Origin: Nitrososphaerota archaeon
GTDB lineage: Archaea; Thermoproteota; Nitrososphaeria; Nitrososphaerales; JACPRH01
NCBI GenBank assembly: GCA_016190055.1
Contig: JACPRH010000017.1
Coordinates: 1-64,000, forward strand
Length of the DNA: 64,000 nt
Direction of reading: 5' to 3'
In this document: positions 3,707 through 36,258 of the stretch, in pieces
Numbering within the stretch: the stretch's first letter is position 1
How the letters are laid out: each line of letters starts with the position of its first letter
Made by a program: the position numbers and the translations under genes
The notes under the pieces: generated by a model
What the model saw: the letters and a program-made list of their open reading frames with translations, nothing else
What the model was told of the DNA's origin: nothing
Databases searched by the model: none

Positions 3707-3753
3707 ATTTACTCATCAGATATATATCAATTCTGATTCCCGAATGTTTGATG

Positions 3754-3990
3754 TTATTTTACGAAGTGGCTGTGGATAACGTAGTAGTAGCCGTGTTTTG
3801 GAGTTGTCCTGTAAGTACATTGAATTTCGCCGCGAAGAATCTTCTCAATAAGAGGAGCAATAAACACAATCTGCTTCACCCGCGTATAATACGCGTCAAC
3901 AGCCTCAACCCTGAAAGCCTCAGGAAACCGGGTAAGCAGTAAACTCACATTCTCATTAAAACTCAAACAAGGATCACGGATGGCATCTTG
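3754..3990 (-). pseudogene. Truncated relic of the ASCH-domain gene
   Basis: The reading frame ending at 3754 encodes about 70 residues nearly identical to the middle of the ASCH-domain protein at 10204-10800, including the ILRGE and CTYRTTPKHGYYYVIH segments. A TAA at 3754-3756 ends it right after HFVK, where the full copy continues for about 66 more residues. Toward the gene start, homology fades after DPCLSF and no credible start codon follows. It is a broken duplicate and overlaps the upstream region of the next gene. Confidence 0.75.
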
Positions 3991-5294: not shown

Positions 5295-7520
5295 ATGAAG
5301 AATAGTAGTAAAAAATATCAGCTAACCCTACTACCGATACTCGTAATTCTCGCATTCAGCACATTCGCACCAACACTAGTTTATGCAGCGCCTACCGCCG
5401 TGTCCGATAAGGACTGGCAGTACGTCAACGGCAACTCATGGGCTGGTAACTTTAGCCCTCAGAACCAGATCACAAAGGATAACGTAAACAACCTCGAAGT
5501 TAAATGGGTCTTCCCAGTCGGATCTAAATCTCAAGCACCACCGGGGCTACAGACCCTCGCCCTAAACGAAGGATCAAACACGCCACCCATAGTCGCAAAC
5601 GGCGCAGTATTCATAACTACAAACTCCCTGAAAACATACGCCATAGACGCAAAAACCGGCAGGCAGCTCTGGACCAATGACTATATCCTTAACGTCTCCG
5701 ACATACAGAAGCGACTACCTGTAGTGGTTGGAGCACCTCACCTCCACGGCGTCCGTTACTGGGCAAGTGGAGACGCTATCCTAGTCGGAGGCATCGCATG
5801 CGACTTCTTCGGAATCGAGGCGAAAACCGGCAAAATATCCTTCTGGGTGAAAGACCTCTGTGCAAACGTCCCCGGAAACCTCTATAACTATAGAACAGGC
5901 CTAGGAGCCAACGCCTTCAACAACATTGGAACCTACGACAAAGGCAAGCAGTTCATCTTCGTACTCCCCGGCGCAATGCACACCGGAGGATACGTAGGAG
6001 ACGCTCGCCACGTCACAATGGGCGTCAGCATGGACACTAAGCAAGTCATCTGGAGAGTCTTCAGCTACCCACCACAAGACGTGGCCACTAAGGACTGGGC
6101 CACACAAGAATGCAGCATAGGCTTCTTCCAAACTTACCCATGCAGCGAAGTAGCAGCCAAGAACGCGGCAGGCTTAGAGTGGGACTGGGCTCAGCCCGGT
6201 GAAAAACCAAACGTCTGGGGCGGCGTCACAGCCAACTGGGGCCAAGCCTTAGTTGACGAAGACACAGGCTTCATCTACACACAAACAGGCAACCAAGGAC
6301 CCTACACAAACGTCACCCTCACACCCGGACCAAGACTCTACGGAAGCACATTAATGGCAATCGATATGAATGCAGGCAAGCGTGCTTGGTGGCTACAGCC
6401 CTTCCCGCATGATCCGTATGATTATGATTGCAACTGGGGAGGCATTCTCACAGAGAACCCGACCCTAGGCAAGGTCTACATGAAGGGATGCAAAGAAGGG
6501 ATACTCTATGTGATGGACGCCAAGACCGGAAAACCACTCTACACTGTTGATGTAGTTCAAGATGCGGTTGGTTGGGGCCAGATTTCAGCAGCAGCCGCTA
6601 AGGAGCCTTCACAAGGCGGAGTCAAATTCCATCTCACAGATCCTCTCAGCTTCTACGATCTAAGAGAGTGGGGTTTCCCCGACAACGGCAAATACTGCGG
6701 CTCACCCTGCATTAACTTCCCATCAGCGTTCAACGGCATCTTCGCCACAGACATGTCCATCAACCCGAATACACAAACACTATTCCACTACTCTAACGTG
6801 GTAATGTGGGCCTTCAAATCACTACCAATGACTGCAGGAAAAACCGTGCAACAGTCAGTCCCCATCACCGCCCGTGACAACTCAACAATCGTAGCAAGAG
6901 ATGTCGCAACAGGCAAAGTCAAGTGGACCTACTTCTACCCATACAGCGCCCAACGCAGCCACATGGTCGTCACAGGAGGCATGGTGTTCACTGGCTTCAC
7001 AGACGGCAACATGAGATTCCTAAACGAAGACACCGGCAACCTTCTAAGAACAATAAACCTAGGAACAGGCATAGTCACCGGCCCAACAATAGGGAAGGAC
7101 TCTGACGGAAACTCAAAGATCTTCGTAATAGCAGGCTCAACAAGCATAGTCGGCCCCTACGGCGGAGCAGCCTACGGAGGACTAGGAGCCCTAGTACCCG
7201 GCACACTAGTAGCAATCGGCCTCTCAGACAGAGCAGCCTCCACAGTCACAACAACTTCGGTAACAACCACCACCGCAACCACAACAGCAACCTCAACAAC
7301 CACAGCCACAACAACCACAGCCACAACAAGCATATCCACCACAACCGCAACCACCACAGCCACAACATCAACCACAATCACCTCAACACAACCAGCACAA
7401 ACCACCACCCTAACCTCAGAAGTCACCACAGGACTACCCTCAGAAATCACCTACGCAGTAGCAGCAATAGCAGTAATCGCAATCATCGCAGCAGCATTCC
7501 TAGCAATGCGACGAAGATAA
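5295..7520 (+). CDS. Secreted, membrane-anchored PQQ-type quinoprotein dehydrogenase 1
   Basis: A 741-residue protein expected to oxidise an alcohol or aldehyde outside the membrane with PQQ and a metal ion. A signal peptide (residues 1-31, ending in PTLVYA) is followed by an eight-bladed quinoprotein propeller with repeated DAKTG-type loops. Active-site marks are Asn333 in TGNQGPY and Asp376-Tyr-Asp378 in HDPYDYDCNWGG; the second Asp corresponds to the extra Asp that separates lanthanide XoxF enzymes from calcium MxaF enzymes. Eight Cys of the domain fall in pairs suited to disulphides (for example ECSIGFFQTYPC). No vicinal Cys-Cys is seen. Residues about 645-705 are a Thr-rich stalk, then GLPSEITYA leads into one membrane helix and MRRR. 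It is one of four paralogues in the window. The physiological substrate is unknown. Confidence 0.85.
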   Translation: MKNSSKKYQLTLLPILVILAFSTFAPTLVYAAPTAVSDKDWQYVNGNSWAGNFSPQNQITKDNVNNLEVKWVFPVGSKSQAPPGLQTLALNEGSNTPPIVANGAVFITTNSLKTYAIDAKTGRQLWTNDYILNVSDIQKRLPVVVGAPHLHGVRYWASGDAILVGGIACDFFGIEAKTGKISFWVKDLCANVPGNLYNYRTGLGANAFNNIGTYDKGKQFIFVLPGAMHTGGYVGDARHVTMGVSMDTKQVIWRVFSYPPQDVATKDWATQECSIGFFQTYPCSEVAAKNAAGLEWDWAQPGEKPNVWGGVTANWGQALVDEDTGFIYTQTGNQGPYTNVTLTPGPRLYGSTLMAIDMNAGKRAWWLQPFPHDPYDYDCNWGGILTENPTLGKVYMKGCKEGILYVMDAKTGKPLYTVDVVQDAVGWGQISAAAAKEPSQGGVKFHLTDPLSFYDLREWGFPDNGKYCGSPCINFPSAFNGIFATDMSINPNTQTLFHYSNVVMWAFKSLPMTAGKTVQQSVPITARDNSTIVARDVATGKVKWTYFYPYSAQRSHMVVTGGMVFTGFTDGNMRFLNEDTGNLLRTINLGTGIVTGPTIGKDSDGNSKIFVIAGSTSIVGPYGGAAYGGLGALVPGTLVAIGLSDRAASTVTTTSVTTTTATTTATSTTTATTTTATTSISTTTATTTATTSTTITSTQPAQTTTLTSEVTTGLPSEITYAVAAIAVIAIIAAAFLAMRRR

Positions 7521-7672: not shown

Positions 7673-7708
7673 TTGGTTGTATAGGTGCCGTCTTACCACA
7701 GTTTATAT
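7673..7708 (+). promoter_or_regulatory. Conserved promoter element of dehydrogenase 2
   Basis: The stretch from TTGGTTGTAT through GCCGTCTTACCAC to TTTATAT is repeated with five mismatches upstream of dehydrogenase 3 at 14805-14840. In both places the TATA box ends 26 bases before the start codon. The TATA box is the last part; the conserved part upstream of it is larger than a BRE and probably includes a regulator-binding site. Confidence 0.7.
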
Positions 7709-7733
7709 CTCACCATCAAACGAAATATTATTA

Positions 7734-9923
7734 ATGATATTAGGAAAATCTCGTATAACTATTCTATCCGTACTTATTGTGCTGACATTCAGCACCTTCG
7801 CACCTGTACTAGTATATGCAGCACCTCTCGCGAACAATAGTAAAGATTGGCAGCACATAGAGGGCAACTCATGGGGATGGAACTACAGCCCTCAAACCCA
7901 AATCAACAAGGACAACGTGAACCAGCTTGAAGTTAAATGGATTGCACCAATACCGGGTGTAGCAAGCAGACCCGCAGGACTACAATCCATAAGCCTAGGT
8001 GAAGGAATCTCAGCACCCCTGCTGATCCATGGTGGCAAGGTCGCCGGTGTTACCAACTTTCTTAAAACGCTACAGTATGATATGGTGACTGGGCAGCTCC
8101 TGTGGACAAACGACTACACTGTTGATGTCACGAAGGAGATTACCAGATTGCCGCTGCAAGCATCCCAACCTCTTCACCTTCACGGCACACGCTACTGGGA
8201 GGCAGGTAACGCAGTCCTGCAGGTCGGACTGGTCTGCGACTTCTACGGAGTGGACTGGAACACAGGCAAAACCTCATTCAGAGTACCAGATCTCTGTCTC
8301 AATATCCCTGGTAACGTCTACAAGTACCAGAGTCAACTTATGGGATCAGGTGAAGCGGCAATAGGAACTTGGGAGAAGGGAAAACAGTTCATCTACGGGC
8401 TGCAGGGCTCCTTACAGGGTGACTTCGTATCAGGCCGCAGCCTGTTCGAAGGTATCGATATGGACACAAAGCAGGTGGTGTGGAGAGTCTTCAACCAGCC
8501 ACCTCAGGATATGGCTGACAAAGACTGGGCGCTACAAGAATGCGACATAGGTTATCTTGTAACAACATCCTGCAGCAAGTTCGCCTCAGATCCAAGTAAC
8601 CGAGCACTACTCGAATACGATTGGCAGGCCGTCCCCGGGCAACCTCCTCACAGGCTGAACGGTGTCAGCGCAAGCTGGGCTGAACCAATAGTCGACGAGG
8701 ACACAGGCCTGATGTACATACAGACCGGTAACCAGAGCCCCTACTCAAACCTCACCTCAAGACCCGGACCAAACCTGTACGGATCAACAATAATGGCTAT
8801 CGACATGAATGCAGGCAAACGTGCTTGGTGGGTACAACCCTATCCACATGATCCATATGATAAGGACTGCAACTGGGGCGGGATGCTGATAGATCATCCG
8901 AAGATTGGCAAGGTCTTCGTGAAAGGATGCAAGGACGGATTCATGTATGTAATTGACGCGAAGACAGGAAAGCCTCTACAGAGATGGGATGCCGTCGTCG
9001 AATCATATGGTGAGAACGATCGCTCATACATAATATATGATCCGCCAACCAAGGAAATGTTAACTCTACCTTGGGCAGGAGCAGGGAAAGAAGAGGTCAA
9101 GGCTTGGGCGAGGGTTAACCCAACCACCGTACTTTTGCGTCCAGGAGTCAATGACTTCGCTGGAGACGCCGCATACGATGGTGAAAACACTATCTACTAC
9201 AAGCCTACCGCCGGCGAATGGAAGATGCAGACTATAGATCTAGAACAATCAGGGGCAAAGGGATTAGCCTCATGGATAGTGTTACCCAGCAGCGCCCCAG
9301 CAAACACCACACTTGTTGCAAGAGACCTAGTGACTGGCCAAATTAAGTGGAGTTATGGGCCCTTCCCAGGTGCACACCGCGTAATGGGTGACCACGTGGT
9401 TATCACAGGAGGCATGATAATTGCTCCTAACAATGACGGATACATATACTACCTAGACAAAGACACAGGTAAGCTTCTCCGCAAAATGGTCATGGGCGCA
9501 ACAATGATAACAGGAGCCTCAGTAGGACAAGATTCTGCCGGTAATACGAAGATCATGCAAATAGTCGGTGTAGGCGTCCAAATGATGGCAGGATTCGTAA
9601 CCCCAATGGGCTCCCCGTCAGCCGGCACAATAGTAGCCATAGGACTATCAGAACAAGCAGGAGGCAAGGCCACAACAGTGACGACTACCGCCGTATCAAC
9701 ATCTGTCACTACCTCAATATCTACATCAATAGCCACCTCAACAACAACCTCGGCCACAACAGTTACAACAGCAACCACCATAACCTCCAGTGCGCCAACA
9801 CAAACCGTGACTCAATCAGTTACCCAGACTACAGGACTACCTTCAGAAGTCACCTACGCAGCAGTAGCAGTAGCAGTAATAGCTATCATAGGCGCAGCAG
9901 TACTACTAATGAGAAAGAAGTAG
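7734..9923 (+). CDS. Secreted, membrane-anchored PQQ-type quinoprotein dehydrogenase 2
   Basis: A 729-residue quinoprotein. The start is set at ATG 7734 rather than an upstream in-frame TTG at 7677, because the TATA box at 7702 sits 26 bases before it and because a clean signal peptide then begins at MILGKSRITILSV and ends PVLVYA. Asn333 (TGNQSPY) and Asp376-Lys-Asp378 (HDPYDKDCNW) fall at exactly the numbering of dehydrogenase 1; the residue between the Asp pair is Lys instead of Tyr. It lacks the YCGSPC Cys pair of its paralogues and has a different segment at residues 420-500, so its substrate may differ. A Ser/Thr-rich stalk and a C-terminal helix ending MRKK follow. It is in tandem with dehydrogenase 1 but has its own promoter and terminator. 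Confidence 0.85.
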   Translation: MILGKSRITILSVLIVLTFSTFAPVLVYAAPLANNSKDWQHIEGNSWGWNYSPQTQINKDNVNQLEVKWIAPIPGVASRPAGLQSISLGEGISAPLLIHGGKVAGVTNFLKTLQYDMVTGQLLWTNDYTVDVTKEITRLPLQASQPLHLHGTRYWEAGNAVLQVGLVCDFYGVDWNTGKTSFRVPDLCLNIPGNVYKYQSQLMGSGEAAIGTWEKGKQFIYGLQGSLQGDFVSGRSLFEGIDMDTKQVVWRVFNQPPQDMADKDWALQECDIGYLVTTSCSKFASDPSNRALLEYDWQAVPGQPPHRLNGVSASWAEPIVDEDTGLMYIQTGNQSPYSNLTSRPGPNLYGSTIMAIDMNAGKRAWWVQPYPHDPYDKDCNWGGMLIDHPKIGKVFVKGCKDGFMYVIDAKTGKPLQRWDAVVESYGENDRSYIIYDPPTKEMLTLPWAGAGKEEVKAWARVNPTTVLLRPGVNDFAGDAAYDGENTIYYKPTAGEWKMQTIDLEQSGAKGLASWIVLPSSAPANTTLVARDLVTGQIKWSYGPFPGAHRVMGDHVVITGGMIIAPNNDGYIYYLDKDTGKLLRKMVMGATMITGASVGQDSAGNTKIMQIVGVGVQMMAGFVTPMGSPSAGTIVAIGLSEQAGGKATTVTTTAVSTSVTTSISTSIATSTTTSATTVTTATTITSSAPTQTVTQSVTQTTGLPSEVTYAAVAVAVIAIIGAAVLLMRKK

Positions 9924-9937
9924 GAAAAAGCAGAAGA

Positions 9938-9973
9938 GACGATCCTGTGAGGATCGTCACTCCCTTCTTTTTA
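9938..9973 (+). terminator. Terminator after dehydrogenase 2
   Basis: GACGATCCT, loop GTG, AGGATCGTC, followed by ACTCCCTTCTTTTT. The stem is nearly identical to those after dehydrogenases 1 and 3. Confidence 0.75.
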
Positions 9974-10005
9974 CCGTAACTAAACCTTGCGCTTCGTAGT
10001 TGGGG

Positions 10006-10086
10006 TACTGCGGAGGTGGGGTTGTGGCGGCCAAGACAGCTGGTCAAATTTTCCCCACAGGGTGCAGGAGCCACATGCCTGCACCC
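10006..10086 (+). ncRNA. Candidate structured RNA element, copy 1 (downstream of dehydrogenase 2)
   Basis: First of three related elements (others at 12372-12455 and 29551-29634, both on the minus strand). It contains a stem GTGGGG/CCCCAC (10016-10021 with 10053-10058), one spacer base, then a nine-base-pair hairpin at 10060-10068/10078-10086 closing the loop AGCCACATG. The sequence TTTTCCCCAC and the loop are nearly constant in all copies, while the hairpin stem changes in a compensatory way. Each copy lies 62-250 bases past a quinoprotein stop codon on the same strand as that gene. It could be an independently transcribed RNA, a processed 3' end or a DNA repeat. Confidence 0.6.
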
Positions 10087-10203
10087 AAAGCCCTACTCCA
10101 ATTAATCATCAGCAATTCTCAACACTCATTGATCGCAGGAAACTCTCAGAAACCGACTATTCCAGCCAAATCTAGCCACGCTAGGAACTGGCGGAGTAGC
10201 AGG

Positions 10204-10800
10204 CTAATTCTGCTCCGGCAGCTCTTTTCTAATATGGAACCAGTTTCTCCACATTAAGGGTAGGTTTTTGCCGTACCATTGGTGGAACCAGCTGAGTATT
10301 TCGCTGCGTGTTAGGCCGGCGAGCTGCGCATCCTCCTCAGATAGCTTGTATGGATCTATCTGCTCTGTCTTGTATACTTCAATAACACACTGTGGTTCTT
10401 TGAGATGTGCTTTTACGAAGCGGCTGTGAATAACATAGTAGTAGCCGTGTTTCGGAGTCGTCCTGTAGGTGCACTGGACTTCGCCTCGAAGAATCTTCTC
10501 AATAAGAGGAGCAATAAACACAATCTGCTTAACCCGATTATAATACGCGTCAACAGCCTCAACCCTGAAAGCCTCAGGAAACTTTGCTAGCAGTAAACTC
10601 ACATTCTCATTAAAACTTAGAGTCGGGTCCATCTCACTATCCCAATCAACCCTGCTAAACACATCAGCAGCAGCAACAGACTCAGCAATCCACTTCTTAC
10701 ACCGCTTAACAACAACAGCAGAACCAACACCCCCACTACCACCACTACGACTACTGCGACGCAACCCTAAATCACCAACACCCTCTAAACAACCAAGCAA
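10204..10800 (-). CDS. ASCH-domain protein
   Basis: The C-terminal 140 residues carry the ASCH/PUA-like pattern: a segment KILRGEVQCTYRT in which the family has its K-x-R-G-x-K/T site, the beta strands HGYYYVIHSRF, and a later DAQLAGLTRSEILSWFHQWYG helix. ASCH domains bind RNA or modified nucleotides. The start is unclear: the first 55 residues of the open frame are Gly/Ser-rich and look non-coding, so translation probably begins near WDSEMDPTLSFNEN (about 10635) or at a Val codon before it. A truncated copy lies at 3754-3990. The gene converges on dehydrogenase 2. Confidence 0.65.
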   Translation of the reverse strand: MLGCLEGVGDLGLRRSSRSGGSGGVGSAVVVKRCKKWIAESVAAADVFSRVDWDSEMDPTLSFNENVSLLLAKFPEAFRVEAVDAYYNRVKQIVFIAPLIEKILRGEVQCTYRTTPKHGYYYVIHSRFVKAHLKEPQCVIEVYKTEQIDPYKLSEEDAQLAGLTRSEILSWFHQWYGKNLPLMWRNWFHIRKELPEQN

Positions 10801-12126: not shown

Positions 12127-12371
12127 CTCCGGTCAGTCTAATAGCAGTTAACAGTAAAATCCGATAGCTAGCAAGTTGAATATTACCACCCGAATTTCAA
12201 CACCCGTTTTAAACACCCGAAGAATGAACAGACCTTAACGTGCCACTAAACCAACTATCTAAGGCTCGAAGAGATTCCCGTCCGAATTTTGCTAGAAACT
12301 AAAAGATCATGTGACCTGGCCTGTAGGTGGAAAGATAGTAGAATCGCTCGTACCGATTTTGATAAATGTTT

Positions 12372-12455
12372 GGATGCAGTCATGTGGCTCCTGCACCCGT
12401 GGGGAAAATATGACCAGCCTGTCGTTTGAGCCGCCACAACCCCACCTCTACGGTA
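12372..12455 (-). ncRNA. Candidate structured RNA element, copy 2 (downstream of dehydrogenase 3)
   Basis: Minus-strand homologue of the element at 10006-10086. Its hairpin pairs 12391-12398 with 12372-12379; read as minus-strand RNA it has one G-U wobble, while the plus strand would have an A-C mismatch. This favours transcription in the direction of the quinoprotein gene. The GTGGGG/CCCCAC stem is unchanged. It begins about 70 bases past the stop codon of dehydrogenase 3, after the terminator hairpin. Confidence 0.6.
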
Positions 12456-12476
12456 GTAGAGCTAAAGGTTGAACAC

Positions 12477-12526: not shown

Positions 12527-14779
12527 TTACTTCTTTCGCATCATCATTACTGCTGCTGCGACTATGGCAATGACTGCTATTCCGATTGCTGCGTAGGTTA
12601 CTGGACCCATGGTTTCTGTAGCTGACGTAGCGGTTACGGTCTGTCCAGGTGCAGTAGTAGTTACCGTAGTAGCTACAGTTGTTGCAGAGGTGCTTATGGC
12701 TGTTGTTGTGACGGTTGTGCTCGCGGTGGTGGTTGCAGTGGTTGCTGATGTTGATGTGACAGTCTGGGTTGTTGATGAGGTGATAGTGGTGCTGGCGGTT
12801 GTTGTCACGGTTGTTGTTTTGGCCTCGGCTGCAGCTCGATCGGATAGACCTAGAGCAATTATGGTGGCCGACAAGGCGCGACCAGCGCTGCCGGTTGCGC
12901 CGCCGGATACGAGAGTCAGTATCTTTGAGTTGCCGGCGGAGTCTGCGCCTATTGTAGGTCCGACCCACATCGCTGCACCGACGTTGATTTCATGCAGAAG
13001 TTTGCCTGTATCCTTGTCTAGGAATCTCACGTAGCCGTCTCCAAAGCCGCTGTAAACCATGCCGCCTGTTACGACCATGTGTGAGCGCTGCTGATTGACT
13101 GGCCAGAACCAGGTCCATTTGGCCTTGCCGGTAGCCAAGTCTCTTGCGACAATGGTGGTGTTCGTTATGGGGTAACTCTTAGTAGTGAAGAGGTTTCCTC
13201 CAACGACGTAGGGATTCTCCTTCAGTATATCCACCTGCAGGCCTATTGCATAGTGAATTACTGTCTGTGTCTCCGGGTCGTATGACGGATCTGTGGCGAA
13301 GAGTCCATTGGACCAGAACGGATAGACTGTACATGGGAGAGTGCAGGCTTTACCCTTGTCACCTGGCTTAGTAGCTGGATAGCTTATCCAGTTCCATTCT
13401 CTCATATCGTAGCTGCTATATGGGTCTGGTCGATAGTACTTGACACCCTCAGGCATCGTCTTCAATGCTGATGCACCTATTTGTCCCCAACTTACCTGCT
13501 CAGCCACCACATCGGCTGTCCATACGGGTTTGCCGGTCTTGGCGTCCATTGCGTACAATACTCCTTCCTTGCAGCCCTTCACGTAGATTTTGCCTACTGT
13601 AGATGACTCAGCTAGCATGCCGCTCCAGTTGCAGTCGTAGTCATATGGATCGTGCGGGAATGGCTGTAGCCACCAGGCGCGTTGACCCTTGTTCATATCG
13701 ATGGCCATGATGGTGCTTCCATACAGCCGCGGACCTGGAGCCAGAGACATGTTCGAGTAGGGCCCTTGGTTGCCGGTATTGGTGTATAATATGCCTGTGT
13801 CCTCATCAATTACGGGTTGACCCCAGTTCGAGGTTACACCAGCCCACTTGCTCGGAGCTTGGTTAGGTAGAGCAAAGTCCCATTCGAGTCCAGCTTGGTT
13901 CTTAGCTGCCACATCTGTACATGGATTTGTGCGGAAGTAGCCTATGTCGCATTCCTGTAGGGCCCAGTCTTTTGTAAGCCGGTCATATGGTGGGCTGCTG
14001 TAGACTTTCCATATGATATTGTAGGGTGCATCCATACTTATGCCGACAGTAGTATGCCTTCCATTTCCTGCTCCGTCAGCTCTTAGCGAGCTGTGAATGT
14101 AGCCGGGGAGGACGTAGACGAATTGACGACCCTTTTCGTATGTTCCAACATCCGCTACAGAGTTTAATGTTTGTCTATAGATGAAATTGCTTGAAACCAG
14201 TTGTCCATCGATATTTGTTTTACAGATATCCGCGATCCGGAACTTTGTCTTACCTGTCTTCGCATCTATAGCGTAGATGTCACAGGCCTTTCCGCCGACA
14301 AGTATTGCATCTCCACCCTCCCAGTACCTTACACCGTGAGAGTGACCCGAACCGAATATTACGGGTAGCTTCGCCGCTTCTGTGGCGTTGATCAGATAGT
14401 CGTGTGACCATACCTGTTTGCCGGTCTTCATGTCAATAGCGTATGTTCTGAAGAAGTTCGTGGTGACATAAGCTATGCCGTTGTGGATTATAGGCGGCGC
14501 GGTTGAACCATCCTCCATACCTAGAGAGGTCATCGCCGCCGGCGATAGGGCTTTGCTTCCGAGTGGGAACACCCACTTTACCTCCAGATCCTTCACGTTG
14601 TTCTTGTTGATCTGGGTCTGTGGGCTGTAGTTCCAAGCCCATGAGTTGCCGTTCACACGCTGCCAATCCTTGTCACTATTCGACAGGGGTGCTGCGTACG
14701 CGAGTGCTGGAATGAATGCGCTGAACGCTAGTATAACTAGTACAGTATAATTTGTTACTCTATATCTTCTAGATAACAT
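12527..14779 (-). CDS. Secreted, membrane-anchored PQQ-type quinoprotein dehydrogenase 3
   Basis: A 750-residue quinoprotein. ATG 14779 is chosen over an upstream in-frame ATG at 14806, because that upstream codon overlaps the TATA box and 14779 lies 26 bases downstream of it. The signal peptide ends PALAYA. Asn337 (TGNQGPY) and Asp380-Tyr-Asp382 (HDPYDYDCNWSG) match the metal/PQQ-site residues of the paralogues with a four-residue offset. The eight paired Cys of dehydrogenase 1 are kept. The C-terminus has a long Thr-rich stalk (residues about 665-720) and a membrane helix ending MMMRKK, but PVTYAA replaces the LPSEVTYA motif of the others. The substrate is unknown. Confidence 0.85.
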   Translation of the reverse strand: MLSRRYRVTNYTVLVILAFSAFIPALAYAAPLSNSDKDWQRVNGNSWAWNYSPQTQINKNNVKDLEVKWVFPLGSKALSPAAMTSLGMEDGSTAPPIIHNGIAYVTTNFFRTYAIDMKTGKQVWSHDYLINATEAAKLPVIFGSGHSHGVRYWEGGDAILVGGKACDIYAIDAKTGKTKFRIADICKTNIDGQLVSSNFIYRQTLNSVADVGTYEKGRQFVYVLPGYIHSSLRADGAGNGRHTTVGISMDAPYNIIWKVYSSPPYDRLTKDWALQECDIGYFRTNPCTDVAAKNQAGLEWDFALPNQAPSKWAGVTSNWGQPVIDEDTGILYTNTGNQGPYSNMSLAPGPRLYGSTIMAIDMNKGQRAWWLQPFPHDPYDYDCNWSGMLAESSTVGKIYVKGCKEGVLYAMDAKTGKPVWTADVVAEQVSWGQIGASALKTMPEGVKYYRPDPYSSYDMREWNWISYPATKPGDKGKACTLPCTVYPFWSNGLFATDPSYDPETQTVIHYAIGLQVDILKENPYVVGGNLFTTKSYPITNTTIVARDLATGKAKWTWFWPVNQQRSHMVVTGGMVYSGFGDGYVRFLDKDTGKLLHEINVGAAMWVGPTIGADSAGNSKILTLVSGGATGSAGRALSATIIALGLSDRAAAEAKTTTVTTTASTTITSSTTQTVTSTSATTATTTASTTVTTTAISTSATTVATTVTTTAPGQTVTATSATETMGPVTYAAIGIAVIAIVAAAVMMMRKK

Positions 14780-14804
14780 TAGAGCCTTATTTGAAAATGG
14801 CCGC

Positions 14805-14840
14805 ATATAAATGGTGGTAAGACGGCATCCATACGACCAA
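14805..14840 (-). promoter_or_regulatory. Conserved promoter element of dehydrogenase 3
   Basis: On the minus strand TTGGTCGTAT, GCCGTCTTACCAC and TTTATAT recur in the same order and spacing as at 7673-7708, 26 bases before the start codon. Confidence 0.7.
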
Positions 14841-18060: not shown

Positions 18061-18223
18061 ATTCAATTAGGTGCAATCTGAGAGTTAGTCAACCAGTAAG
18101 TCAAGCTGGACGGTGGCGTAAATTAATCAATTAGCTACCCGGGAGGTGTAGCGATCAGCTTAACAGCGTCTTAGTTTAGTTAAATGTTTTTATATTCACA
18201 ATACACATATGGATAAGTGTATT

Positions 18224-19417
18224 ATGAATATGAAAACTTTTGAAGTGGAGAAAGATGTAGCGCGGAGGCTTAGAGCGCTACTTCCTAACCTAGAATCTCT
18301 ATCATCGCAACCGCCATCCGCTGGATTTGACCGTGGATTCGATTTTTATGGGAAGGACAGCGAGGGCAACGACTACTTTATTGAAGTCAAAGCACGCCGC
18401 TGCAACCGGATTGATATAGGGCAGATCGTAGAACAGGCCTCAGCCGTACAAAAGAAACACCCTAACGCCAAAGCTGTTCTTGTGTGCGCATCTATCGATC
18501 CCGCAGTAGGAGCCCTGCTTGAAAAGGCAGGCATCAAAACTCTACTGCTAGCCGATCTTAAACCAAAAAAACCAGTAGCACACGAAGGTAAAGAAAAAGA
18601 GCTTAATCTCTCACCAACCGAGCAGCAGGCCTACTTCGCATTAATACGGAACGAAAAGAAGATAATCTCTACTAATGATTTGGCATCGCTTCTGGACATA
18701 CCGGTTGAACGGGCGAGAAACCTCCTCGTATCTTTAAACAAACATCAAGCAGTCTTCCGGTTCGGCAGAGGAAAATTCGCAGTTATTCCTCCTGATATAC
18801 TATACGAAAGAAAGAGCTACACCGCCGATCCTTACCTTATCATAGATAGCATCATGAGCGGTGAACAGTACTACGTAGCATACGGCTCCGCGGCCCACCT
18901 CCACGGCATCGCAACACAGCTTCCAGTCTCAGCCTTCATCGCAACCCTGAAGCAGCAGAGACCAATCCATCTAAACGGAACCGAGATCCGCTTCATCACA
19001 GCGGCAAAACCCCGATTCTTCGGTATTGAGCAACAAGAGTACTTCGGCGCACCTCTCCAAATATCTGACCTTGAAAGAACTGTTATCGACTGTATAGATC
19101 GACCAGACCTTGTCGGAGGCATTGATGAAGCTGCTAGAGTGACAGCCGAATCTCTTCAAAGGCTAGATTTCGACAAGCTTGTGAACTACGCGAAAAAGAT
19201 GAAGCGACAATCACTAGTCCAGCGACTGGGATTTATTCTGGAAAAACTCTCCAAATCCCACTACACCGTTCCAGCGCATACATTAAATCAGCTCAAGCTT
19301 TTGGTTCAGAACGCGTACCCTTATCCTCTAGACCCCAAGCGCGGAAAGAAAGGAGCACTATCCCCCCACTGGCACATCTACGAGAATGTAGATAATCTGA
19401 GGTGGCACTTTGATTAG
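18224..19417 (+). CDS. AbiEi-type antitoxin fused to an N-terminal PD-(D/E)XK nuclease domain
   Basis: About 397 residues. The TATA box TTTTTATATTC at 18187-18197 suggests the start is ATG 18224 (or 18230) rather than ATG 18209. In the numbering from 18209, residues 10-115 look like a restriction-type fold: Asp45 in GFDFYG, then Glu59-Val-Lys61 in FIEVKARR. Residues 135-190 form a winged helix, and 195-402 match AbiEi C-terminal antitoxin domains (YGSAAHLHGIATQLP, DLERTVIDCIDRPDLVGGIDEAARV). AbiEi normally represses the operon and neutralises AbiEii. The added nuclease-like domain is unusual. The stop overlaps the AbiEii start by eight bases. Confidence 0.75.
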   Translation: MNMKTFEVEKDVARRLRALLPNLESLSSQPPSAGFDRGFDFYGKDSEGNDYFIEVKARRCNRIDIGQIVEQASAVQKKHPNAKAVLVCASIDPAVGALLEKAGIKTLLLADLKPKKPVAHEGKEKELNLSPTEQQAYFALIRNEKKIISTNDLASLLDIPVERARNLLVSLNKHQAVFRFGRGKFAVIPPDILYERKSYTADPYLIIDSIMSGEQYYVAYGSAAHLHGIATQLPVSAFIATLKQQRPIHLNGTEIRFITAAKPRFFGIEQQEYFGAPLQISDLERTVIDCIDRPDLVGGIDEAARVTAESLQRLDFDKLVNYAKKMKRQSLVQRLGFILEKLSKSHYTVPAHTLNQLKLLVQNAYPYPLDPKRGKKGALSPHWHIYENVDNLRWHFD

Positions 19418-24903: not shown

Positions 24904-24905
24904 AC

Positions 24906-25208
24906 GGAGGCATCGATGAAGCCGCCAGAATCGCAGCCGAAGCTCTTCAAAGACTAGGTTTTGATAAGCTTGTGAACTACGCGAAAAAAATGAATCGACA
25001 ATCGCTAGTCCAGCGGCTCGGCTTCATTCTGGAAAAACTCTCCAAAAATCAATACACCGTTCCAGCGCATGCATTAGACTAACTCAAGATTCTGGCCCAG
25101 AACGCGTACTCGTATCCTCTAGACCCCAAGAGCGAAAAGGAAGGAGCACTGTCTCCCCGCTGGCACATCTATGCGAACATAGACTGTCTGAGGTGGCTCT
25201 GTGCTTAG
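24906..25208 (+). pseudogene. AbiEi 3' fragment (pseudogene)
   Basis: The frame repeats the last 100 codons of the AbiEi gene (19108-19417): GGIDEAARIAAEALQRL, then LVNYAKKMNRQSLVQRLGFI and YPLDPK. An in-frame TAA at 25079-25081 interrupts it. Homology runs past the stop into the region corresponding to the AbiEii start, then ends. Confidence 0.85.
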
Positions 25209-29220: not shown

Positions 29221-29550
29221 CTTCAAAATTTTTTGCCTCCTCGTCCTCCAAAAACGCGCAAGCCATGTTCCTTAACTTAACAGGATCTGGCTAGAGCCCC
29301 TGCGGTTCTTGCGCCACTGAGCGCGATTAACAGGTTGGGCCAACGGCTATGTATGCGAAAGCCACAATGCTCCTCAGAGAGCGAATGGGAGAGTGCCCAT
29401 CTAGCATCCAAGCCAAAATCGACATGGGAGAACCCAACAAACACGCAACAAGCAGATAAATAGAAAGAAAGAGGAAGAAAACAGCTCCACTACAACAGTA
29501 GAGTAGAGTAGAGCCATCACCTACTTTTGATATTTTTCAAAGGGACGATA
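29221..29550. other. Non-coding remainder beside the transposase relic
   Basis: No recognisable gene. A plus-strand frame near 29340-29457 (TAMYAKATMLLRERMGE) is open for about 40 codons but matches nothing I know. CTCCACTACAACAGTAGAG near 29489-29515 is a weak inverted repeat. Confidence 0.3.
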
Positions 29551-29634
29551 GACGCAGGCATGTGACTCCTGCGTCCGTGGGGAAAATATTAACCAGCCTG
29601 AAGCGGGCCGTCACAATCCCACACCTCCGCAGCA
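29551..29634 (-). ncRNA. Candidate structured RNA element, copy 3 (downstream of dehydrogenase 4)
   Basis: Minus-strand homologue of the elements at 10006 and 12372. Its hairpin GACGCAGG/CCTGCGTC (29551-29558 with 29568-29575) differs from copy 1 at two base pairs that both change in step, while the nine-base loop differs by one base. TTTTCCCCAC is unchanged. In the coding-like frame of copies 1 and 2 this copy has a stop codon, which argues for RNA rather than protein. It lies about 250 bases past the stop of dehydrogenase 4. Confidence 0.6.
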
Positions 29635-29830
29635 CCCCTAAGTTCCGCGAAAGTATCTACACAATAGTATCCTTGATTCCCCCTAAAAGCGTTGCGGATG
29701 AAGATTCTGTAACGTACATATAGAATATATGCTCAACAAGAAAATTGGGTACGTACAAATTTACACTATACACACTAACACCTATGTTATAGCAAAATAA
29801 CCTAATTTAAAGAAGAAAAAGAAAAGGAAG

Positions 29831-29883: not shown

Positions 29884-32046
29884 TTACTTCTTTCGCATTA
29901 CTAGTACTGCTGCTGCAATCAGAGCTATTACTGCTACTCCAATTGCTGCATAGGTGACTTCTGCGGGTAGACCTGAGGTCTCAGTCTGGGTTACTTGTGA
30001 TGTTACTGTTGTTGAAGAGGTGCTTACCGCTGTTGTTGTAACGGTTGTGCTTGCGGTGGTTGTGGCCGTGGCTGTGGTTGTGGCTGTGGTTGTGGCTGTG
30101 GTTGTGGCTACGGATGTTACTGTGGATGCTGCTTTAGCTGAGAGTCCTATGGATACTAGAGTCATTGGGCTTGTTGGAGCAATAGCGCCCATTCCTTGTC
30201 CTGCGCCGACTAGGGCGAAGATTCTCTGGTTTCCGTCAGAGTCTTGACCGGTTGTGACACCGACCTTAACGTCTGAACCGAGAGATACTTCCTTCAGGAC
30301 TTTGCCGCTGCTCTTGTCGAAGACACGGATTACACCGTCGATTGAGCCTGTGATGAGTAGTTCAGGTGTAGCGATCATTGCGGCTCGCTCGTTACCGTTC
30401 TTGTTGAAGTAGTTCCACTTGATAGCACCGGTAGCTGCATCACGTGCAATTATCGAGGTGTTTTGAATTGCGTAAGCAGTTGATTTGCTGACAACGCTTC
30501 CAGGTCCGTTGTAGTTAGGTGAGGTGATGCGTGTCTGTAAGGCTAATGCATAGTGGAAGAGCATTCCCGTCTCTGGGTCATAGGTCATGTCTGTGCCGAA
30601 GATGCCGTTGTACCAGTATGGATAGACATCACATGGAGAACCACAGTACTTGCTGCCGTCAGGAGCCTTCATTTCCCTCATGTCGTATGTGCTGGTTGGG
30701 TCGTTAAGGTGGTACTTGACTCCGCCTTGGTTAGGCTCAAGTGTTCCTGCCTTGGTGATTTGTCCTAGCTGGAACTGCTCTTCGATAACATCCTTCACGT
30801 ATATTGGCTTACCTGTCGCGGCATCCATTACGTACAGCCGTCCTTCCTTGCATCCCTTCATGTAGACCTTACCGAGAGTAGGTACTTCTGCAAGTACTCC
30901 GCTCCAGTTGCAGTCATAGTCGTATGGATCGCGTGGGAATGGCTGTAGCCACCAGACACGCTTACCAGCGTTCATATCGATAGCCATGAAAGTGCTACCG
31001 TAGAGACGAGGTCCAGGTGTCATAGTGACGTTTGTGAATGGTCCTTGGTTACCTGTGTTTGTGTAAAGGATACCTGTGTCTTCATCTACGACCATTTGTC
31101 CCCAGTTGGAGGTTACTCCACCCCATCTGCTTGGTGCTTCTCCGGGCTGAGACCAGTCCCACTCGAGTGCAGCTTGATTCTTAGCTGCTACCTCGGTACA
31201 TGGGGTTGTTAGGAAGTATCCAATGCTACATTCCTGTAATGCCCAGTCCTTAGTGGCTTTGTCTTGTGGTGGGTAGCTGAAGACGCGCCAGACTACTTGA
31301 TTAGTGTTCATGTCGATGCCCATTGTGACGTGGCGGCCGTCTCCGTCGTAGAGGGAGCTGTGAATAGCGCCCGGAACGACGTAGGAGAACTGCTTGCCTT
31401 TGTCATATGTTCCGATGTTTGCTTGTGCAGAGACGCCGCCGAGAGGATTGCGGTATTGGTAGATGTTTCCAGGTACGTCCTTGCACAGGTCTTTGACCCA
31501 TATGGATGTCTTACCTGTGTTTGCATCTATACCGTAGAAGTCACATGCCATACCGCTGACTAGGATTGCGTTTCCGCCAGCCCAGTATCTAATACCGTGG
31601 AGGTGTGGCGTGGTGATATCAAGCGGCAGTCTTTGCTTTGTTTCAGTTATGTTGATTGAGTAGTCGTGAGCCCATAGTTGTTTACCGGTCTTGGCGTCGA
31701 TTGCATATGTTCTCAGGTAGTTGGTTGTTAGGTAGACCTTGCCGTTGGCAACAATTGGTGGAGTTGTTGAACCCTGCCTTAGAGTAAGAGACTTTAGTGC
31801 TGCGATGGCGTCGCTTGAGCCTTGCAGCGGGAAGATCCACTTGACCTCCAGCTGGTCTGCATTACTCTTTGTGATCTGTGTCTCAGGGCTGTAGTTCTGA
31901 GCCCATGAGTCGCCGTTCACGTATTGCCAGTCCTTCGCACTGCTTGCGACAGGCGCTGCGTATACAAGTGATGGTACGATTGTTCCGAATGCGAGAATTA
32001 CGAGTACGGAGAGTATTGCTACTCTAGACTGTTTAGAAGATGACAT
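29884..32046 (-). CDS. Secreted, membrane-anchored PQQ-type quinoprotein dehydrogenase 4
   Basis: A 720-residue quinoprotein with a signal peptide ending PSLVYA. Asn333 (TGNQGPF) and Asp376-Tyr-Asp378 fall at the same numbering as in dehydrogenases 1 and 2. The residue before the first Asp of the motif is Arg instead of His (FPRDPYDYDCNW), the only such change among the four. The eight paired Cys are present, including KYCGSPC. The Thr-rich stalk is shorter (about 35 residues), followed by GLPAEVTYA, a membrane helix and MRKK. It stands alone between the transposase relic and dph2, with its own promoter and terminator. Confidence 0.85.
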   Translation of the reverse strand: MSSSKQSRVAILSVLVILAFGTIVPSLVYAAPVASSAKDWQYVNGDSWAQNYSPETQITKSNADQLEVKWIFPLQGSSDAIAALKSLTLRQGSTTPPIVANGKVYLTTNYLRTYAIDAKTGKQLWAHDYSINITETKQRLPLDITTPHLHGIRYWAGGNAILVSGMACDFYGIDANTGKTSIWVKDLCKDVPGNIYQYRNPLGGVSAQANIGTYDKGKQFSYVVPGAIHSSLYDGDGRHVTMGIDMNTNQVVWRVFSYPPQDKATKDWALQECSIGYFLTTPCTEVAAKNQAALEWDWSQPGEAPSRWGGVTSNWGQMVVDEDTGILYTNTGNQGPFTNVTMTPGPRLYGSTFMAIDMNAGKRVWWLQPFPRDPYDYDCNWSGVLAEVPTLGKVYMKGCKEGRLYVMDAATGKPIYVKDVIEEQFQLGQITKAGTLEPNQGGVKYHLNDPTSTYDMREMKAPDGSKYCGSPCDVYPYWYNGIFGTDMTYDPETGMLFHYALALQTRITSPNYNGPGSVVSKSTAYAIQNTSIIARDAATGAIKWNYFNKNGNERAAMIATPELLITGSIDGVIRVFDKSSGKVLKEVSLGSDVKVGVTTGQDSDGNQRIFALVGAGQGMGAIAPTSPMTLVSIGLSAKAASTVTSVATTTATTTATTTATATTTASTTVTTTAVSTSSTTVTSQVTQTETSGLPAEVTYAAIGVAVIALIAAAVLVMRKK

Positions 32047-35618: not shown

Positions 35619-35757
35619 TTCTAAAACCTGAAACCTCATCCATATCTCAATGTTCTTTCAGGAATCCGCCGCAAAAAAAACAACCTTAGCCTAGGTCAAA
35701 AAACAACAGAATCGCTTCAGCGTCAACTATTAATACGGAAGCAGCAGGCGTTGAGGC

Positions 35758-35866
35758 AGGCTATGGCATTAGCCTTAGCGTAACAGCCTAGAACCGCATC
35801 CCTCAAACAAGGATGCTGATAATGCCTACCTAGCACAATAAGAGTGAAAAACAGTAGGTAGGCAAA
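35758..35866 (+). ncRNA. Fluoride riboswitch (crcB motif) with expression platform
   Basis: P1 is AGGCT/AGCCT (35758-35762 with 35771-35775). Its loop GGCATT (35765-35770) can pair with AATGCC (35821-35826), the defining pseudoknot. P3 is GCATCC/GGATGC (35796-35801 with 35811-35816), followed by the conserved CTGATAATGCC core. All of this matches the fluoride aptamer. Then GCCTACCTA (35824-35832) can instead pair with TAGGTAGGC (35855-35863). That alternative stem takes three pseudoknot bases and covers the purine-rich site just before the crcB start, so fluoride binding should release translation. A TATA-like ACTATTAATAC lies about 30 bases upstream. Confidence 0.85.
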
Positions 35867-35868
35867 AG

Positions 35869-36258
35869 TTGAAAGGAATTGAATTAGTTTTCCTGTTAAT
35901 CGGAGGCACAGTCGGACTCTACCTCCGCTACCGAATGACAGCCCAGTCAGCAACAATCGGGCCCCTCCCCGTGACCGTTCTGCTCGTCAATATCCTAGGC
36001 AGCTTCATGCTCGGCGTCTTCTCAATCCTCGCCATCTCATGGAGCCTAGACGCAAAATACGCGCTACTCGTAGCGGTCGGATTCTGCGGCTCATTCACCA
36101 CAATGTCCTCATTCGCACTAGACACAGTCAACCTCATAGACCACAAACAAATAGAGGCGGCCATCATCAACATATTCGCAAACATCAGCTTATCCCTAGC
36201 AGCAGTAATTGCAGGCAGAACCCTAATCAACATACTACTAGAACTAACCCTACACTAG
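35869..36258 (+). CDS. crcB: Fluoride ion channel CrcB/Fluc
   Basis: A 129-residue protein with four membrane helices that exports fluoride as a dual-topology dimer. Family motifs: GGTVGLYLRY near the N-terminus, VNILGSFMLG, and GFCGSFTTMSSFALDT with the Na-binding Gly-x-Thr-Thr turn and the Phe pair. TTG 35869 follows a purine-rich site seven bases upstream. The fluoride riboswitch directly upstream confirms the assignment. Confidence 0.95.
   Translation: MKGIELVFLLIGGTVGLYLRYRMTAQSATIGPLPVTVLLVNILGSFMLGVFSILAISWSLDAKYALLVAVGFCGSFTTMSSFALDTVNLIDHKQIEAAIINIFANISLSLAAVIAGRTLINILLELTLH

Follow-up and report, generated by a model that had tools for sequence, protein, structure and literature searches.

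A multi-copy pseudoknotted RNA, frequent behind quinoprotein genes, in one family of Nitrososphaerota

Closest described systems and the copies in the window

Bacteria and archaea have small RNAs that are encoded at the 3' ends of mRNAs or arise from these ends, SdhX being one example (review PMC9438474). The RNA analysed here is similar in that it is a small structured RNA by the 3' ends of metabolic genes, where such RNAs often have separate regulatory roles (PMC9438474). It differs from RNAs of the SdhX type in its multiple copies, its conserved pseudoknotted core and its separability from the neighbouring gene, and it has no known target or Hfq-type partner. Like the orphan structured RNA motifs (PMC2864571, PMC6429828), it was found through sequence and covariation and has no assigned function; unlike them, it matches no Rfam 15 family and is limited to one archaeal family. 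It shares with the fluoride (crcB) riboswitch the form of a short pseudoknotted RNA, whereas sequence and layout differ: the fluoride RNA lies directly upstream of crcB, while the present RNA has no consistent downstream gene. A fluoride riboswitch (RF01734) is itself found in the window (the whole stretch of 64,000 nucleotides that was analysed) at 35750-35835 (+; 41.7 bits), just 5' of crcB (35869-36258), as the sole Rfam 15 family passing there. Dispersed repeats of the REP/MITE type likewise have many intergenic copies with decayed members, but the present RNA has strand-specific covariation and in-place conservation, and no terminal repeats or target duplications were seen.

Heterotrophic Nitrososphaerota lineages are uncultured, and to our knowledge Nitrososphaerota have so far yielded few structured RNAs. 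A conserved multi-copy RNA beside enzymes reported to be among their most expressed is a concrete lead to regulation in these archaea, and existing metatranscriptomes provide direct test material for it.

As listed in Table 1, three copies lie in the window, at the positions and on the strands given by an earlier note on this DNA. Copies 1, 2 and 3 score 84.6, 86.3 and 91.6 bits in a covariance model that was trained on 20 copies, these three among them, against 11.2 bits for the next-best site in the window. A BLAST search with copy 1 alone gave 15 further matches in the genome (E 9e-24 to 7e-9). The length first proposed was too short, since the element also has a P1 hairpin on its 5' side and, in some copies, a tail pairing on its 3' side. 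The sequence motifs said to be shared by all three hold with exceptions: copy 2 has GTAGAGGTG in place of CGGAGGTG, and copy 1 reads AGCTGGT, not GGCTGGT. No Rfam 15 family reached its gathering score at the RNA, sub-threshold matches at copy 1 being attributable to chance, and literature searches returned no description of it; the RNA appears undescribed so far.

Table 1. Copies of the RNA, their parts and the associated genes in the window
Feature	Position	Strand	Parts or evidence
PQQ quinoprotein gene without RNA behind it	5295-7520	+	PF01011
PQQ quinoprotein gene 5' of copy 1	7677-9923	+	PF01011
RNA copy 1, P1 to tail	9992-10104	+	BLAST, covariance model
Copy 1 hairpin P1	9992-10015	+	arms 9992-9999/10008-10015; G-rich loop 10000-10007; covariation across copies
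Copy 1 P2 with inner P2a	10016-10058	+	P2 10016-10021/10053-10058; P2a 10028-10031/10039-10042
Copy 1 pseudoknot PK1	10023-10075	+	UGUGG 10023-10027 with P3-loop CCACA 10071-10075
Copy 1 hairpin P3	10060-10086	+	arms 10060-10068/10078-10086
Copy 1 closing pairing P4	9997-10104	+	9997-10007 with 10094-10104; MFE fold, permutation test
RNA copy 2	12369-12461	-	covariance model, fold
Copy 2 P1	12456-12461/12446-12451	-
Copy 2 P2	12440-12445/12399-12404	-
Copy 2 P2a	12429-12433/12415-12419	-
Copy 2 PK1	12434-12438/12383-12387	-
Copy 2 P3	12391-12398/12372-12379	-
PQQ quinoprotein gene 5' of copy 2	12527-14806	-	PF01011
RNA copy 3	29547-29654	-	covariance model, fold
Copy 3 P1	29645-29654/29623-29632	-
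Copy 3 P2	about 29618-29622/29577-29582	-
Copy 3 P2a	29606-29610/29594-29598	-
Copy 3 PK1	29611-29615/29561-29565	-	UGUGA with UCACA
Copy 3 P3	29568-29576/29550-29558	-
Conserved noncoding stretch 5' of copy 3	29655-29803	-	putative promoter of its own
PQQ quinoprotein gene 5' of copy 3	29884-32046	-	PF01011

Fold and covariation

That the element is a structured RNA on the strand predicted earlier is well supported. Across 39 copies, 96.7% of the cells in P2, P2a, P3 and PK1 are paired, and in eight core pairs both partners change. None of 500 shuffles reached the observed covariation. When control structures were slid by 1-3 columns, pairing dropped to 34-49%. The compensatory changes thus exceed chance, as expected of structured noncoding RNA, and the covariation which the earlier note had proposed to look for was found both in this core and in P1. 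Many of the pairs are G-U, which fixes the RNA strand. In the terminal hairpin P3, the compensatory change already described between copy 1 and copy 3 was confirmed (GGUG/CACC to GACG/CGUC). For copy 2, the pair said to be G-U on the claimed strand only is indeed so, but a G.A mismatch beside the loop is also present.

The pseudoknot PK1 between P2 and P3 was absent from the earlier description. It joins UGUGG of the P2 internal loop to CCACA of the P3 loop; 99% of its cells are paired, and its sequence is nearly invariant. Copy 3 carries the compensatory variant given in Table 1; at the pair concerned, G-U occurs in three copies and pairing is lost in one. The P2 internal loop and the P3 loop are, like PK1, nearly invariant across copies.

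Outside the core the RNA is more variable. In 18 copies aligned by hand, P1 is paired yet sequence-variable: C-G, U-A, U-G and G-C occur at the same positions, and positions 4-7 covary. The P1 arms were picked by hand, and all tests given here, those on the core included, ignore shared ancestry. The G-rich P1 loop prefers its own tail 3' of P3 (-106.8 compared with a mean of -82.7 for other copies' tails; permutation test, p=0.002, 12 copies). In copy 1 this pairing, P4, shares positions with P1; judging from the modelled folds, it may be an alternative to P1 or a second pseudoknot. In a second copy type and in the marine copies P1 is different or absent. Fold-energy z values were -2.5, -2.5 and -1.4 for copies 1-3, and 0 to -0.6 for three other copies; beyond the window, energy by itself is therefore unremarkable.

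Core indels of 1-2 nt between copies shift every reading frame, and protein coding therefore does not explain the element. Two candidate peptides (GGAG...ATG in P3, or GGAGGTG...GTG) were rejected because their frames differ by 1-2 nt between copies; orthologous downstream frames are also unconserved.

Range of the RNA and its relation to quinoprotein genes

According to the covariance model, the genome of the window (G000; 2.2 Mb, 63 contigs) contains 17 copies. Good copies, meaning those above 44 bits, total 41 in five genomes from three genera: besides the 17, there are 14 in G003 (same genus), 6 in G020, 2 in G031 and 2 in G040. All five examined genomes of the family carry the RNA, with weaker decayed copies besides (L080, L076, L088). 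A search of some 1,150 further genomes, made up of the rest of 395 genomes in the order and several hundred sampled from the class and the phylum, gave no credible copy. Weak matches in G413 and G630 (22.7 and 27 bits) were discarded as within statistical noise for hundreds of genomes, the former sitting within a cytochrome-like reading frame. A pattern scan of 85,000 species gave four true matches, all in Nitrososphaerota MAGs (XS84Bin3 twice, Arabian11_MAG_28 and ETNP2_MAG_84); four bacterial matches were set aside as chance ones without P3. Viral contigs contained no copy, and with filters off no diverged copy was seen at the deoxyhypusine synthase (DHS) locus of 24 genomes from other families. 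Judging from their many quinoprotein genes and from the marine MAGs, the hosts seem to belong with the heterotrophic marine Thaumarchaeota of PMC7300363.

The window has four quinoprotein genes, which encode PQQ enzymes that oxidise sugars or alcohols, and the RNA follows three of them, as stated earlier. Beyond the window, the proposed link to dehydrogenases holds in part: it is statistically real, but it is not required and other hosts exist. Slightly over half of the copies (22/41) lie 80-261 nt past an intact quinoprotein stop, always on the same strand, mostly at 80-120 nt and in a few cases at 201-261 nt; these 22 include one gene cut by a contig end and one known from its last 85 codons. 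However, only about a third of the quinoprotein genes have the RNA behind them (10 of the 29 listed in G000, 10 of the 33 in G003), and 14 of the 41 copies lie elsewhere without such a link. Copies unrelated to dehydrogenase genes, which the earlier note had named as evidence against its reading, are thus present in part.

The remaining five copies are intact (88-95 bits), although their quinoprotein gene has disappeared or survives only as a relic. N-terminal relics remain at c24 (G000) and G003 L073, and C-terminal relics, both identified by eye, at c29 (G000) and at L081 of G020, which belongs to another genus. At c11 (G000) the gene is gone, and its G003 ortholog L075 keeps it. Hence, the RNA is not always behind a quinoprotein gene and is separable from these genes.

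Most quinoprotein genes in G000 and G003 end in a near-identical GACGATCC...GGATCGTC hairpin with a U-run (e.g. window 9938-9973). This terminator is strikingly uniform given about 30 diverged paralogs.

Presence of the RNA changes 15 times over the quinoprotein tree, and supported branches force at least 13 of these changes; the label is scattered, being no more clustered than shuffled labels (118/500 shuffles were as low). Some quinoprotein loci without a detected RNA carry a decayed one, for example G003 C17:45327. Such scatter, the decayed copies, the number of copies (up to 17 per genome) and neighbours that differ between genera would suit a mobile or recombining short non-autonomous repeat, structured as RNA, which spreads between genes and prefers the space after quinoprotein terminators. 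We consider this unlikely. Neither a target-site duplication nor a terminal repeat nor a clean empty site was seen in the aligned flanks, those of discordant pairs having diverged. Copies are kept in place between G000 and G003, one locus is kept across two genera, and P1 and P3 covary in a strand-specific manner. Moreover, gene conversion among paralogous flanks, together with loss, could produce the scatter.

Independent loci, upstream regions and a proposed role

In two genera (G000 and G003 of genus 1, and two G040 contigs) a copy occurs at the DHS locus, flanked on one side by a divergent mptE-like gene (PF01973) and on the other by the deoxyhypusine synthase gene (PF01916). Because the mptE-side gene is divergent, the RNA at this locus cannot be its 3' UTR. 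Between G000 and G003 the core is 97% identical, with upstream flanks of 83-97% identity as opposed to 36-67% downstream. A TnpB-like gene (PF07282, L019:1327-2511) stands between the RNA and the deoxyhypusine synthase gene in G000 and is missing from that site in G003; a tnpB-associated RNA was rejected, as tnpB is near copy c57 only. Copy c14/L070 follows a tRNA-like gene and has the TATA-like AAACTTATATTTA upstream; tRNA linkage as a general rule was dismissed, this being the only case.

The DHS-locus RNA is upstream of a same-strand gene. This placement, the compactness of the fold, in which one pseudoknot has good support and a second is likely, and the nearly invariant internal and P3 loops would be in line with a riboswitch or small self-cleaving ribozyme class, in which the pseudoknotted core would serve as ligand sensor or undergo self-cleavage. 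Such a class is nevertheless quite improbable, since no Rfam riboswitch or ribozyme matches and no invariant cleavage-site consensus was recognised. The RNA does not form a consistent 5' leader before related genes; the downstream genes are unrelated, and several copies, copies 1 and 2 included, face convergent genes. A 5' leader of the downstream gene was ruled out for copies 1 and 2, where the next genes are convergent or opposed.

A profile of conservation similar to that at the DHS locus was observed at copy 3. About 180 nt before its core are 87-97% identical to the orthologous locus in G003, whereas identity falls to 71% and then to 33% toward the quinoprotein stop (29884), and the downstream flank is 30-53% identical. 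In G020, a stretch of about 160 nt upstream of the RNA is common to the unlinked copies L082 and L084, and L085 has part of it. Conserved upstream regions with unconserved outer flanks are the pattern expected of separate genes with their own control regions. These profiles favour a separate transcription unit over an mRNA 3' element. The tie to PQQ enzyme expression drawn in the earlier note is weakened. A uniform TATA box at a fixed distance was not found across copies, and the U-runs 3' of the RNA are weakly enriched, without a uniform terminator.

The upstream region shared by L082 and L084 contains a TTCCGAAATCGGAA-like inverted repeat, a possible operator, and the similar TTCGGAAAAACCGAA occurs upstream of c11 (L015).

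The same-strand copies at 80-261 nt behind intact quinoprotein stops could also be taken as cis-acting 3' elements, carried by the mRNAs of quinoproteins and of other strongly expressed genes. Terminator readthrough or cleavage would then leave a knotted RNA at the transcript end, which blocks exonucleases or sets mRNA stability. One copy lies directly behind glnK of an amt-glnK pair, and in heterotrophic marine Thaumarchaeota the genes with the highest expression include those for quinoproteins and an ammonium transporter (PMC7300363), as this reading would have it; a pseudoknotted fold would also suit an exonuclease block. On balance we find a cis-acting element rather unlikely, because two thirds of the quinoprotein genes lack the RNA, the RNA is placed after a U-run terminator and it stays intact after deletion of the gene. 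Furthermore, the upstream gene at the DHS locus is divergent, and at copy 3 the region before the RNA is conserved while the flank nearest the stop is not.

The best explanation, to which we give a probability of about one half, is a lineage-specific gene family, present in multiple copies, for small structured noncoding RNAs that probably act in trans. Each gene would have its own upstream control region and yield, from a promoter of its own that we infer, a discrete transcript of about 90-120 nt folding into the P1, P2/P2a and P3 hairpins. Two further pairings would complete the fold: PK1, between the P3 loop and the internal loop of P2, and, in many copies, P4, between the G-rich loop of P1 and the 3' tail. 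The near-invariant P2 internal loop, PK1 and P3 loop would most simply be the surface to which a single shared partner binds, this partner probably being a protein. Quinoprotein 3' flanks would be frequent hosts, with the RNA gene just past the mRNA terminator; between some 30 paralogous loci, it seems to have been acquired, lost or swapped. Against a purely trans-acting model, half of the copies stand behind quinoprotein genes, mostly at 80-120 nt, which it leaves unexplained. The analysis covers five genomes from three genera, and gene conversion may have homogenised the copies of a genome. Only tentatively can the RNA be placed more precisely, as a double-pseudoknotted regulatory or scaffold class of one PQQ-rich Nitrososphaerota lineage, multi-copy, acting in trans and bound by one protein, for which quinoprotein 3' flanks would be preferred gene sites.

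Two other repeated sequences were noticed in the window. The 214-nt stretches at 3750-3963 and 10404-10617 are 90% identical, the second lying inside a reading frame (10204-10800, -) without a Pfam match. In addition, an AbiEi-like antitoxin gene (PF09407) is located at 18209-19417, and 300 nt of its 3' part (19114-19413) are repeated at 24905-25204 with 84% identity.
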